A DNA stretch of 38,175 nt from a virus, in IMG/VR virus record IMGVR_UViG_3300034066_001244, positions 1 through 38,175 of that record, one strand, 5' to 3'. The stretch's first letter is position 1. The number at the start of each line of letters is the position of its first letter. Position numbers and translations under genes: made by a program. The notes below the pieces were generated by a model that was given only the letters and a program-made list of their open reading frames with translations, searched no databases and was not told the origin of the DNA. This document shows, one piece after another, positions 3,701 to 38,011 of the stretch.

Positions 3701-4134
3701 GTATTGATTTGGATACTATCCAAAAAATGTGGGAAACGGATTCAAAAATAGATATTGATAATCTGCATATAGAATCTTTAAATATTCCAATTTTACATTC
3801 AAAATATTTTGACCTATACAATACAATCAATCTATTAAAAAAGAAAGCAGAGCAACAGAAGAAAAAAATAAGACATGAAAGGTATGAATACTTTACTGGA
3901 AAAGCAGACCCTGACGTTTACCTAGAAAATCCATTTCCAAAAAAGATTCGTGATAAAGAAACTCTTCAAGGATACTTAGATTCTGACGAAAAACTATCTC
4001 AAGTTGTTTTAAAAATAGAATACTATGAAACAATGTTGAGTTATATTGACAGCATTCTGAAAATGATTTCAAATAGAACTTATCAAATTAAAAACTCTAT
4101 AGACTTTCTGCGTTTTCAGTCCGGATTAGGGTAA
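3697..4134 (+). CDS. uvsY: Recombination mediator UvsY
   Basis: UvsY loads the UvsX recombinase onto single-stranded DNA coated with gp32. The 145-residue length matches the family, and the protein is helical and lysine-rich, with a basic KKKAEQQKKKIRHERYEYF block at about residues 48-66 that would suit DNA binding. It starts inside the end of gp3 (ATGA overlap) and precedes uvsW, as in other T4-like phages. UvsX, its partner, is encoded at 22008. Confidence 0.85.
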   Translation: MSIDLDTIQKMWETDSKIDIDNLHIESLNIPILHSKYFDLYNTINLLKKKAEQQKKKIRHERYEYFTGKADPDVYLENPFPKKIRDKETLQGYLDSDEKLSQVVLKIEYYETMLSYIDSILKMISNRTYQIKNSIDFLRFQSGLG

Positions 4135-4167
4135 ATAAATATTCATAGCAATTATGATGCTATGAGT
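4130..4167 (+). promoter_or_regulatory. Late promoter and start-codon hairpin of uvsW
   Basis: GGTAAATAAATA at 4130-4141 resembles a late promoter. It is followed by a hairpin, CATAGCA (4144-4150) pairing with TGCTATG (4158-4164), so the ATG at 4162-4164 is inside the 3' arm. A transcript from the late promoter would start at about 4143-4147, at or within the 5' arm, whereas read-through RNA would fold and hide the start. This matches what is known of T4 uvsW, which is made late. Confidence 0.55.
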
Positions 4168-5628
4168 GACGTAATCATTGAAAAGAAGAATGAGGTTTAC
4201 ATTAAACTACACTGTGAACCTCATATTTTATACGAACTTCAACCATATTTTACATTTGAGGTTGAATCTGCAAAATTCATGTCCCAGTATAGAAGCAGAC
4301 ACTGGGACGGCAAGATTCGCTTGTTAAGTTCCCATACTGGAGAAATTTATACTGGTTTGTTGGACAAAATTATCGACAAACTAAAACTCCATAATTATAC
4401 GTATGAATTTAAAGAAAATAAATTTTATGGTTTACCTTTTGAGATAAACGAAAATATATCCTTCGAAGGCGTGAAGGATTATATGTCGTCTATTTGTACC
4501 CATTCTCCACGTCAGTATCAAATAGAGGGAGTATACGATGCTCTACGACATAACCGAAAATTATTGATATCACCCACAGCCTCAGGAAAATCCTTGATGA
4601 TTTATTCCCTTGTAAGGTATTACGTAGATAAAGGACAAAAAATTCTTCTAGTTGTTCCAACGACATCTTTGGTAGAGCAGATGTACAAGGATTTTGAAGA
4701 TTATGGTTGGAATGTTGATTCATACTGTCACAGGATTTATTCTGGTAGAGAGAAAACAAATGAACATCAAGTAACGATTACAACTTGGCAATCTGTGTAT
4801 AAACTAGAACGTTCATTCTTTGAAGACTATGGGGTAGTTATAGGAGATGAGGCACACTTGTTTAAGAGTAAGTCACTTATTGATATTATGTCCAAACTTC
4901 ATCATGCAAAATATCGTTTTGGATTTACTGGAACTTTAGATGGAACTCAAACACACAAATGGGTTCTTGAAGGATTATTTGGACCTTCATATAAGGTTAC
5001 TAGAACTTATGAGTTGATGCAACAAGGACACATTTCTCAATTGGATATTCAGTGTCTTGTACTCAAACACCCACCCCAAAAGTTTGAAACCTATGAAGAT
5101 GAAATTCAATATTTAATCTCCCAAGAACAAAGAAATAAATTTATTACTAATCTCTCTCTTGACTTAAAAGGTAATACTCTTGTTTTATTTTCAAGAGTAG
5201 AAGCACACGGAGCAATACTCTACGAAAAGATAAATAATACTAAGCGAGGTGATCGTAAAGTATTTTTTATTCATGGAGGAGTGGACACTGAAGAAAGAGA
5301 ATTGGTAAGAGAAATTACAGAAAGAGAGAACAATGCAATTATTGTAGCCTCTTATGGTACTTTTTCTACAGGCATTAATATTAAAAATCTTCATAACGTT
5401 ATTTTCGCATCTCCAAGCAAATCACGTATTAGAAATCTTCAATCTATTGGGCGAGTTCTTAGAAAAGGAAAGAACAAAGTAAAAGCAGTTCTTTACGATA
5501 TTGCTGATGATTGCACTCATAACTCTAGAAAGAATTATACTTTAAATCACCTCATAGAAAGAATTAAAATTTATAACGAAGAAAACTTTAATTATGAAAT
5601 AATCACAATACAACTTAAGAAAAAATGA
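4162..5628 (+). CDS. uvsW: ATP-dependent helicase UvsW
   Basis: UvsW is a superfamily 2 helicase that unwinds R-loops and branched DNA and moves T4 replication from origin-primed to recombination-primed initiation. The 488 residues show Walker A SPTASGKS at 137-144, DEAH at 229-232, motif III FTGT, and motif VI QSIGRVLRKGK near residue 430. An N-terminal domain of about 110 residues precedes the helicase core, as in T4. The start codon is buried in a hairpin (see the regulatory entry). It overlaps the next gene by four bases. Confidence 0.95.
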   Translation: MSDVIIEKKNEVYIKLHCEPHILYELQPYFTFEVESAKFMSQYRSRHWDGKIRLLSSHTGEIYTGLLDKIIDKLKLHNYTYEFKENKFYGLPFEINENISFEGVKDYMSSICTHSPRQYQIEGVYDALRHNRKLLISPTASGKSLMIYSLVRYYVDKGQKILLVVPTTSLVEQMYKDFEDYGWNVDSYCHRIYSGREKTNEHQVTITTWQSVYKLERSFFEDYGVVIGDEAHLFKSKSLIDIMSKLHHAKYRFGFTGTLDGTQTHKWVLEGLFGPSYKVTRTYELMQQGHISQLDIQCLVLKHPPQKFETYEDEIQYLISQEQRNKFITNLSLDLKGNTLVLFSRVEAHGAILYEKINNTKRGDRKVFFIHGGVDTEERELVREITERENNAIIVASYGTFSTGINIKNLHNVIFASPSKSRIRNLQSIGRVLRKGKNKVKAVLYDIADDCTHNSRKNYTLNHLIERIKIYNEENFNYEIITIQLKKK

Positions 5629-24971: not shown

Positions 24972-24993
24972 AACTCCTTCGGGAGTTTTTTTT
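24972..24993 (+). terminator. Terminator with TTCG loop closing the replication block
   Basis: AACTCC and GGAGTT form a 6-bp stem with a TTCG tetraloop followed by a run of T. A late promoter follows directly, marking the switch from middle to late genes. Confidence 0.85.
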
Positions 24994-24994
24994 G

Positions 24995-25002
24995 TATAAA
25001 TA
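24995..25002 (+). promoter_or_regulatory. Late promoter TATAAATA of the two-repeat basic protein gene
   Basis: An exact TATAAATA lies 23 bases before the ATG at 25025. The leader that follows, ACTAAAAAGTATTTGTAAAA, recurs almost base for base before the paralogous gene at 38027. Confidence 0.75.
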
Positions 25003-25024: not shown

Positions 25025-25966
25025 ATGGATACCAAAAAATTCCTAGGATTGATGGAAGCATATTCTGAGGTTTATTCTCCTCAAAGAGAATTTGAACTTT
25101 GGGTAAATGAACTCGTGGAAGAGGGTTATGACCTCTCCGAATACACTTGGGATGAAATGTATGATATTTATGAAGCAGAAGGTTCCTATGGTGCCACTCC
25201 AAAGGCATATAGCGCAGCAAGAGATACCAAAATGACTGCAAAGAGAAAGCCTTTCCTTAAAAAGATGTTAAGCAGAACTAACCCTGCTAATAGAACTTCC
25301 TCATCATCTGACAGAAAAGGACTAACCGCTGACGATAGAGAAAGAGCAAGAGCAGGTTCTGCTCATGGTGTAGGTACTCGTCAAGACCACGATTACCCTT
25401 CTCAAGGTCCTGGTGGTGTAACTAAGAACCCCAAGAAACTCCGTAAGCAAAAAGCAATGGGTGAGAGTTACGATATCTTTGACGTAGTTCTTGAGTTCCT
25501 CTGTGCAGAAGGATATGCAGAAACTCTGGAAGAAGCGGAGTGGATGATGGCTAATGCACTAGATGCTGAAGATATTGAAGAAATCTTGGAAGCAGAAGGT
25601 TCTTATGGTCAGACACCTAAAGCAAGAACAGCAATGGGTAAACTTGAAGTTTCTAGAAGAACTAAACCTGTAGGTGAGTATAGTCAAAGAGGTGAAAAAA
25701 CTAGGAAAGTGAAGGCAGCAGAGAAGCACAACCGTAGAATGGATAGTGGTCCTGATGTAGGAAATCGTGGTAAGAGATCCACCTCTCCTAGATGGTCTGG
25801 TTATCTGGGAGCAACTGGTAGAGGTAAGATGGATCAAGATTCTAGAGATTACGCAAGAGATAGGGATGTGGAATATGGTGCCGGTGAGAATAAGCCTGGT
25901 TCTGGTTCAGTAACCAGAAATCCTAAGAAACTCCGTAAGCAAAAAGCAATGGGTGAGCACGACTGA
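25025..25966 (+). CDS. Two-repeat basic protein, candidate packaged head protein
   Basis: A 313-residue protein with an internal duplication. Each half has an acidic helical EGY segment (33-50 and 162-190), then AEGSYG (51-56 and 190-195), a basic S/R/K-rich stretch, and finally NPKKLRKQKAMGE (135-147 and 299-311). The N-terminus MDTKKFLGLMEA ends in L-M-E at 9-11, like the gp21 site seen in gp23 here. The start and leader are shared with the gene at 38027. The two KAMGE ends may also be protease sites. I infer a scaffold or packaged protein cut into basic fragments; family function is unknown. Confidence 0.75.
   Translation: MDTKKFLGLMEAYSEVYSPQREFELWVNELVEEGYDLSEYTWDEMYDIYEAEGSYGATPKAYSAARDTKMTAKRKPFLKKMLSRTNPANRTSSSSDRKGLTADDRERARAGSAHGVGTRQDHDYPSQGPGGVTKNPKKLRKQKAMGESYDIFDVVLEFLCAEGYAETLEEAEWMMANALDAEDIEEILEAEGSYGQTPKARTAMGKLEVSRRTKPVGEYSQRGEKTRKVKAAEKHNRRMDSGPDVGNRGKRSTSPRWSGYLGATGRGKMDQDSRDYARDRDVEYGAGENKPGSGSVTRNPKKLRKQKAMGEHD
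25433..25461 (+). repeat. KKLRKQKAMG repeat, copy 1
   Basis: The first of three identical 29-base copies. It starts AAGAAACTCC and ends AGCAATGGG. It encodes KKLRKQKAMG in the first half of the gene at 25025. Confidence 0.9.
25925..25953 (+). repeat. KKLRKQKAMG repeat, copy 2
   Basis: The second 29-base copy, identical to the one at 25433 and near the end of the same gene. The upstream AATCCT is shared with copy 3. Confidence 0.9.
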
Positions 25967-25989: not shown

Positions 25990-26019
25990 AACCCCTTGAC
26001 TTTTTAGTTGAGGGGTTTT
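25990..26019 (+). terminator. Long-stem terminator between the basic protein and HNH genes
   Basis: AACCCCTTGACT pairs with AGTTGAGGGGTT over 12 bp (two G-T pairs) around a TTTT loop. It carries a TTGACT -35 box in its 5' arm. Confidence 0.8.
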
Positions 26020-26048
26020 ATAATATAAATAGCTCTAAATTAAGAGCT
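25996..26048 (+). promoter_or_regulatory. Overlapping host-type and late promoters plus start-site hairpin of the HNH gene
   Basis: TTGACT (25996-26001), 17 bases, TATAAT (26019-26024) form a host-type promoter. TATAAATA (26024-26031) is a late promoter sharing a base with it. AGCTCT (26031-26036) pairs with AGAGCT (26043-26048), which lies four bases before the ATG. RNA from the host-type promoter should start near 26031 and fold; late RNA should start near 26037, just past the 5' arm. Confidence 0.6.
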
Positions 26049-26051
26049 CAT

Positions 26052-26336
26052 ATGATACGTTCTTCTAATCCATCTAAAAATGCTTTAAGACAACGTAAGT
26101 GGAGAAAAGAAACTAAAAAACTTTTAGTTGAACAAAAGGGTGGATGCTGCTCTAAATGTGGTTACGATAAATGTATCGGAGCACTTGATTTTCATCATCC
26201 TACTGGTGAAGAAAAACTTGACAGATCATTACTGTTGAATGTAAGATCAATAGATAAGGTTTTGAAAGATGTAGAACCATTAGTTCTTTTATGTGCAAAC
26301 TGTCATAGAGAAGAACATTATAACTCGGGGAATTAG
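26052..26336 (+). CDS. HNH homing endonuclease
   Basis: A free-standing 94-residue HNH nuclease. CSKCG (about 34-38), LDFHH (51-55), then LLCANCHREEH (78-88) give the HNH core with two CxxC-type zinc pairs. Such genes spread by cutting alleles that lack them. It lies between the basic protein gene and tRNA-Ala. Its last ten bases are the first ten of the tRNA, and its TAG stop is made of tRNA positions 8-10. Expression appears controlled by the hairpin upstream. Confidence 0.9.
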   Translation: MIRSSNPSKNALRQRKWRKETKKLLVEQKGGCCSKCGYDKCIGALDFHHPTGEEKLDRSLLLNVRSIDKVLKDVEPLVLLCANCHREEHYNSGN

Positions 26337-26400
26337 CTCAGTTTGGTAGAGCGCCTGCTTTGCAAGCAGGATGTCAGCGGTTCGAGTCCGCTATTCTCCA
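26327..26400 (+). tRNA. tRNA-Ala (TGC anticodon)
   Basis: A 74-base cloverleaf folds well: acceptor GGGGAAT with ATTCTCC (one G-T pair), a D arm with GCTC/GAGC, anticodon stem CCTGC/GCAGG with loop TTTGCAA, and a T arm AGCGG/CCGCT with TTCGAGT. The anticodon is TGC. The CCA end is not encoded. It shares ten bases with the HNH gene upstream. Confidence 0.95.
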
Positions 26401-30931: not shown

Positions 30932-30962
30932 AGAGACTCTTTTTTAGGGTCTCTATTTTTTA
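30932..30962 (+). terminator. Terminator after the small gene
   Basis: AGAGACTC pairs with GGGTCTCT over 8 bp (one G-T pair), loop of seven T plus A, followed by ATTTTTT. The next late promoter overlaps its tail. Confidence 0.8.
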
Positions 30963-30968
30963 TAAATA
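30961..30968 (+). promoter_or_regulatory. Late promoter TATAAATA of the structural gene at 31001
   Basis: An exact TATAAATA, 32 bases before the ATG, directly after the terminator T tail. Confidence 0.75.
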
Positions 30969-37436: not shown

Positions 37437-37492
37437 TTTAAGACTGAAGTTGAATGTTGTATAAATAAATATAACTCCACTTCAGTCTTAAA
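37437..37492 (+). promoter_or_regulatory. Late promoter inside a 14-bp inverted repeat, upstream of the GIY-YIG gene
   Basis: TTTAAGACTGAAGT (37437-37450) is the exact reverse complement of ACTTCAGTCTTAAA (37479-37492), which ends at the ATG of the endonuclease. TATAAATA (37460-37467) lies in the loop. Read-through RNA from nrdB can form a 14-bp hairpin closing the start region; late RNA begins near 37473 and lacks the 5' arm. T4 I-TevI is regulated in this way. Confidence 0.7.
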
Positions 37493-38011
37493 ATGAATAA
37501 CTATATTCTTTACTATTACTTAAGGGAGGACTTTAGTTCTCCCTTTTATGTTGGTTATGGAAAACCAAGAAGAATACACGCAAAACATTTGAGAAGTAAT
37601 GGAGCAAATCTATTACCATCAAGAGAAAGAAGGTGGATTGTAAAATCTGGATTAACTAAAGAAGAAGCAATAGAACTTGAAATAAAACACATAGCACTTT
37701 GGAAAAGAGAGTGTGATGGTGGAGTTCTATTAAATCAAAATCTTGGTGGAGAAGGAAAACCAGGAGGACAAAAAACGAAAGGATTTGGTGGTAAAAAGCA
37801 CAGTGAAGAAAGTAAAAAGAAAACCTCATTAAAAGTTGCTGGTAAAAACAATCCAAAAGCAAAAAAATATATCTTCATTTCTCCAGATGGTAAAAAGCAT
37901 ATTGTAGAAGGTGGTGTTAAGAAGTTCTGTAAAGAAATAGGAATAACTTATGATGCGGTTTTAGGAAAGAAGAGTAAGAATACAAAAGGTTGGACTATCA
38001 TAAATACCTAA
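37493..38011 (+). CDS. GIY-YIG-like homing endonuclease
   Basis: A 172-residue protein. The N-terminal YILYYYL (4-10) and FYVGYGKPRRIHAKH (18-32) form a variant GIY-YIG core (YYY/YVG). Downstream HSEESKKKTSLK and GVKKFCKEIGITYDAVLG are NUMOD-type DNA-binding elements of seg-like free-standing endonucleases. It is inserted between nrdB and the cargo-like gene at 38027, and its stop overlaps that gene's late leader. Whether it is active cannot be told. Late expression is suggested by the hairpin. Confidence 0.85.
   Translation: MNNYILYYYLREDFSSPFYVGYGKPRRIHAKHLRSNGANLLPSRERRWIVKSGLTKEEAIELEIKHIALWKRECDGGVLLNQNLGGEGKPGGQKTKGFGGKKHSEESKKKTSLKVAGKNNPKAKKYIFISPDGKKHIVEGGVKKFCKEIGITYDAVLGKKSKNTKGWTIINT
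37999..38006 (+). promoter_or_regulatory. Late promoter CATAAATA for the gene at 38027
   Basis: CATAAATA lies inside the end of the endonuclease gene and is followed by the leader CTAAAAAAGTATTTGTAAAA, which closely matches the leader before the gene at 25025 (starting at 25003). AATAC and GTATT can form a short hairpin. Confidence 0.6.

Follow-up and report, generated by a model that had tools for sequence, protein, structure and literature searches.

A probable late-only translational switch of the T4 type before an HNH endonuclease gene of a T4-like cyanophage

A free-standing HNH endonuclease gene of a T4-like cyanophage is probably controlled by a T4-type late-only translational switch, in which a late promoter lies inside a hairpin over the ribosome-binding site; we put the probability of this reading at roughly 0.78. 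RNA presumed to come from upstream replication genes would pass a weak terminator stem and enter the HNH gene, and this read-through RNA, carrying both AGCTCT and AGAGCT, would cover the HNH start region with a fold that excludes ribosomes. Later in infection, the phage late sigma factor (gp55 type) would fire TATAAATA at 26024-26031 and give an RNA that begins near 26037 without the 5' arm, so that the HNH start would be open. The promoter, the hairpin, their conserved register, and the recurrence of the arrangement before other homing endonucleases are all apparent from sequence and comparison, and from them we infer where the RNA ends lie, how the RNA folds in the cell, and how HNH protein is affected.

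The window, the whole 38,175-base stretch of an IMG/VR virus record, carries T4-like replication genes on its + strand, including those for a sliding clamp, clamp loader, RegA-like repressor, DNA polymerase, UvsX, helicase, and MazG, with nrdA and nrdB later. The clamp, clamp-loader, polymerase, UvsX, and helicase genes lie upstream of the HNH gene on the same strand, and the nearest annotated relatives around the HNH region are Synechococcus myoviruses (Kyanoviridae). The 26052-26336 product, whose ATG occupies 26052-26054, matched the Pfam HNH model only below the cut-off, and its C..C/HH/C..CH residues were invariant in A1; judged by these motif residues and its family match, it is an HNH homing-type endonuclease. 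The only Rfam match was the tRNA. The preceding ORF (25025-25966) contains a repeated segment, AAGAAACTCCGTAAGCAAAAAGCAATGGGTGAG, at 25428-25466 and 25922-25957 and matches in part larger proteins of S-CREM1 and S-SZBM1.

Table 1. Features of the window that bear on the proposed switch.
Feature	Coordinates	Strand	Evidence or remark
12-bp terminator-like stem (two G-U pairs, TTTT loop, poor T tract)	25990-26017	+	Fold; 3' of ORF 25025-25966
Sigma-70-like promoter, TTGACT-17-TATAAT, 11/12	25996-26024	+	Predicted start 26031; probably incidental
Late promoter, T4-type, TATAAATA	26024-26031	+	Predicted start ~26037; kept before HNH in relatives
6-bp hairpin AGCTCT/AGAGCT with a loop of 6, stopping 3 bases short of the HNH ATG	26031-26048	+	5' arm absent from predicted late RNA
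HNH (homing-type) endonuclease gene, free-standing, 94 aa	26052-26336	+	PHROG family phrog_3106, E=1.3e-28
tRNA-Ala(TGC)	26327-26400	+	Bases 8-10 (TAG, 26334-26336) are the HNH stop codon
14-bp arms 37437-37450/37479-37492 around TATAAATA 37460-37467	37437-37492	+	Stem ends at ATG 37493
Homing endonuclease, GIY-YIG/NUMOD type, directly 3' of nrdB	37493-38011	+	phrog_314 homing endonuclease, E=4.7e-11

The initial annotation had proposed that two overlapping promoters choose between an RNA with the hairpin and one without it, and its letters and coordinates for both promoters, the hairpin, the GAG, and the HNH ATG all proved correct. TTGACT (25996-26001) is followed after a 17-base spacer by TATAAT (26019-26024), which shares T26024 with TATAAATA, and the AGCTCT arm (26031-26036), AAATTA loop (26037-26042), and AGAGCT arm (26043-26048) follow. 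The start positions were inferred from usual promoter spacings, with which those proposed earlier (26031 for sigma-70 and about 26037 for the late sigma factor) agree; T4 late promoters precede the RNA start by roughly one turn of the helix (PMC2988020). The predicted cost of opening the start region, taken as -14 to +12, was 8.5-10.7 kcal/mol in read-through RNA, 8.0 kcal/mol in RNA from 26031, and 4.2 kcal/mol in late RNA. Because masking is predicted in read-through RNA and in RNA from 26031 alike, the proposed six-base shift is physically sensible.

If a sigma-70 start at 26031 competed with the late start at 26037, this shift alone would set whether the hairpin is present. The 11/12 sigma-70 match with its optimal spacing of 17 and the predicted retention of the hairpin in RNA from 26031 fit such a competition, and a genuine start at 26031 is conceivable because cyanophages lack MotA and AsiA, and the middle genes of MotA-less T4-like phages have been suggested to carry early and late promoters that overlap (PMC2984593). 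We nevertheless consider the competition of two starts unlikely. First, the sigma-70 pair was ruled out as a conserved element: the best matches before the HNH genes of L002, L003, S-RIM2, S-WAM2, and S-H38 were 9, 7, 7, 9, and 7/12, compared to 11 in the window, and the late promoter and hairpin persist in these relatives. Second, the TTGACT has another explanation, being part of the terminator stem, as the initial annotation stated; this -35 element falls in the 5' arm, and the two arms occupy 25990-26001 and 26006-26017. Third, a sigma-70/late-promoter overlap of this kind was found at only 2 of 102 late promoters, and no second copy of the overlap turned up in viral_contigs with an exact-match 20-base probe (GGGGTTTTATAATATAAATA). 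Finally, the hairpin is present on read-through RNA anyway. Thus, of the proposed choice between two promoters, the late promoter and hairpin stand, in a conserved register that matches the T4 switches, and sigma-70 as the conserved alternative start is not supported. Since a sigma-70 start is neither needed nor conserved, we view the switch as one between read-through RNA and late RNA, and upstream read-through is the more likely source of the hairpin-bearing RNA.

Sigma-70 matches of at least 11/12 are uncommon in the window and not unique (6, versus 0-4 in 15 shuffles), and weaker matches were not enriched there (60 versus 52.9). The window has six copies of TATAAATA, all on the + strand, compared to 2.4 expected on both strands. 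Terminator-like stems abut TATAAATA late promoters at three window sites (24972-25002, 30932-30968, and 25990-26031), the two further stems lying at 24972-24987 and 30932-30954.

The GAG at 26044-26046, the only Shine-Dalgarno-like letters in the hairpin, had been assigned the role of ribosome-binding element. This role is not conserved in relatives: the gap between GAG and ATG is 5 nt in the window, ~3 nt in L002, ~10 nt in L003, and ~12 nt in S-RIM2. Because this distance is not conserved, the entire start region is better taken to be the masked element.

In isolation, the hairpin of the window is weak, and 36 of 200 shuffles matched its 4.3 kcal/mol difference in sequestration, as would be expected of an ordinary late promoter beside a chance inverted repeat and no switch. 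By our sequence comparisons, it is only through conservation that the combination of late promoter and hairpin exceeds chance. The HNH proteins of L002, S-RIM2, and L003 are 83%, 81%, and 76% identical to that of the window, and in all three (T/G)ATAAATAGCTC...GAGC precedes the HNH start with late promoter and GCTC...GAGC hairpin in the same register. The pattern ATAAATAGCTC-n-GAGC occurs once in the L002 contig, once in the L003 contig, and once in the whole 175,777-base S-RIM2 genome, always before the HNH gene. The late promoter was kept before the HNH genes of L002, L003 (as GATAAATA), S-RIM2, S-WAM2, and S-H38. Masking in L002 is predicted to use another pairing partner with the same outcome, as the start region there pairs best with upstream sequence (TTGGCTCTT with AAGAGCCAA, enclosing a 9-bp hairpin). 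The AGCTC hairpin was rejected as a widespread element per se: a pattern scan of viral_contigs returned 58 stretches, of which most were unrelated sequences, a number that, roughly estimated, does not exceed chance expectation for a collection of that size, and therefore only HNH-linked matches were used.

In more distant HNH genes (S-WAM2, S-H38, and IMG/VR loci), the design is kept with changed stems. The late promoter itself sits in the 5' arm (GGTATAA/TTATACC) of the S-WAM2 stem, GTTTGGTATAA/TTATACCAGAT, and of the S-H38 stem, CTTTGGTATAA/TTATACCAAAG; in IMG/VR HNH genes, GATTAAC/GTTAATC or GGTAGAA/TTCTACC stems directly follow TATAAATA. Shuffles as good as the natural sequence numbered 0 of 200 for L227, L237, L260, L020, and S-H38, 2 of 200 for L002, 4 of 200 for S-RIM2, and 0-1 of 200 for several IMG/VR HNH genes, and the switch energy was not unusual relative to 200 shuffles for other IMG/VR HNH genes (L206, L223, L224, and L225). 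Counting against a switch, the late RNAs of L003 and S-RIM2 still cost 8.6-9.5 kcal/mol to open. A further HNH gene, S-H38 L113 (an ORF starting MPRESKEER), has a late promoter and then a GTATACAA/TTGTATAC hairpin that is partly retained in late RNA.

These comparisons also bear on whether the palindrome is instead a DNA operator at which the endonuclease represses its own late promoter. The operator bound by I-TevI overlaps that enzyme's own late promoter (PMC2988022), the window palindrome adjoins a late promoter, and wobble-pair counts (6 G-U and 8 A-C), which do not tell a hairpin in RNA apart from a palindrome in DNA, are compatible with DNA symmetry. The stems, however, differ wholly among HNH subfamilies yet stay at the same place with respect to the predicted start and the ATG, and the best fold in L002 joins the start region to another upstream sequence, making an operator very improbable.

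The same design recurs after nrdB. The GIY-YIG assignment of the 37493-38011 product comes from its residue pattern, and its NUMOD3 match was below the cut-off. The late-promoter hairpin before this gene is stronger than the HNH version in the same window. Nearly all of 80 IMG/VR relatives of the gene keep TATAAATA inside the long hairpin, and 6 of the 14 stem pairs changed on both sides among 27 distinct sequences, a level that none of 500 shuffles reached. One S-H38 GIY-YIG gene has the late-promoter motif without a hairpin, and the rule is therefore not universal. With this stronger, covarying instance, the conserved register in HNH relatives, and different stems at the same place, a chance inverted repeat is distinctly improbable as an account of the window hairpin.

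Among 102 genes with a late promoter, drawn from the window and four cyanophages, switch energies were higher for the 8 endonuclease genes than for the 94 others (p=1e-4, an optimistic value because the phages are related but were treated as independent). The same measure recovers the known T4 switches of e (11.8-14.6) and segB (10.8). At 4134-4164 of the window, there is AATAAATA together with a CATAGC/GCTATG hairpin that covers the ATG of a UvsW-like gene (ORF 4162-5628); this gene was rejected as an additional switch gene, as the hairpin is absent in four other cyanophages.

The 3' end of the HNH gene overlaps a tRNA. Of 68 distinct HNH loci, 26 had an overlap of ~10 nt (26327-26336 in the window), the partner being tRNA-Ala, -Asn, or -Thr, and TATAAATA lay upstream of 24 of the 26 HNH genes with the overlap but only 4 of the 42 without it, counts that are not independent by descent. 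With the HNH stop codon inside the tRNA, ribosomes and RNase P would compete for the same RNA: RNase P cleavage would cut the stop codon away, and the tRNA would lie in the path of the ribosomes. Because of this conflict, delayed HNH translation could protect tRNA maturation. That the cyanophage switch serves mainly to protect tRNA production, with tRNA matured early and endonuclease made from late RNA, is a possible though doubtful extension; simple compaction of the genome may account for the overlap itself, because CpeT before tRNA-Asp in S-WAM2 and other pre-tRNA genes of cyanophages end likewise. If the overlap is the cause, it gives a concrete and testable reason for late-only delay.

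The switch is of a known kind, of which the cyanophage is a new member. The literature searched, whose coverage excluded most subscription journals, yielded no account of a switch like this in cyanophages. T4-style delay of homing endonucleases appears to extend to cyanobacterial viruses, in both the HNH and GIY-YIG-like families, and the several unrelated stems point to repeated selection for late-only expression.

Three groups of known systems resemble the window. In middle genes of RB49, S-PM2, and Syn9, sigma-70-like and NATAAATA boxes lie near each other (PMC2984593), as in the window, but those overlaps were proposed for middle timing and have no hairpin, and the sigma-70 part in the window is not conserved. 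Inhibitory structures of the same sort precede T4 e, soc, and 49, where a late promoter lies in the 5' arm of a start-masking hairpin (PMC3014915); these are the phage's own late genes rather than homing endonucleases, and the e hairpin, unlike that of the window HNH gene, masks a strong Shine-Dalgarno sequence. The third group comprises T4 I-TevI/II/III and segB and Aeh1 mobE, which like the window combine a homing endonuclease, a hairpin in the ribosome-binding region, and late RNA without the 5' arm; for I-TevI, segB, and mobE, the start is masked on early or middle read-through RNA and the late-promoter RNA lacks the 5' arm (PMC2988022). Like the window HNH gene, segB lies among tRNA genes, and mobE also encodes an HNH enzyme. 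Compared to these endonuclease switches, the window HNH gene has a cyanobacterial host, unrelated stems, no intron, no strong Shine-Dalgarno sequence in the 3' arm, and a gene end that overlaps a tRNA. The delay of I-TevI protects splicing of the td intron, a parallel to the tRNA protection proposed here for cyanophages.
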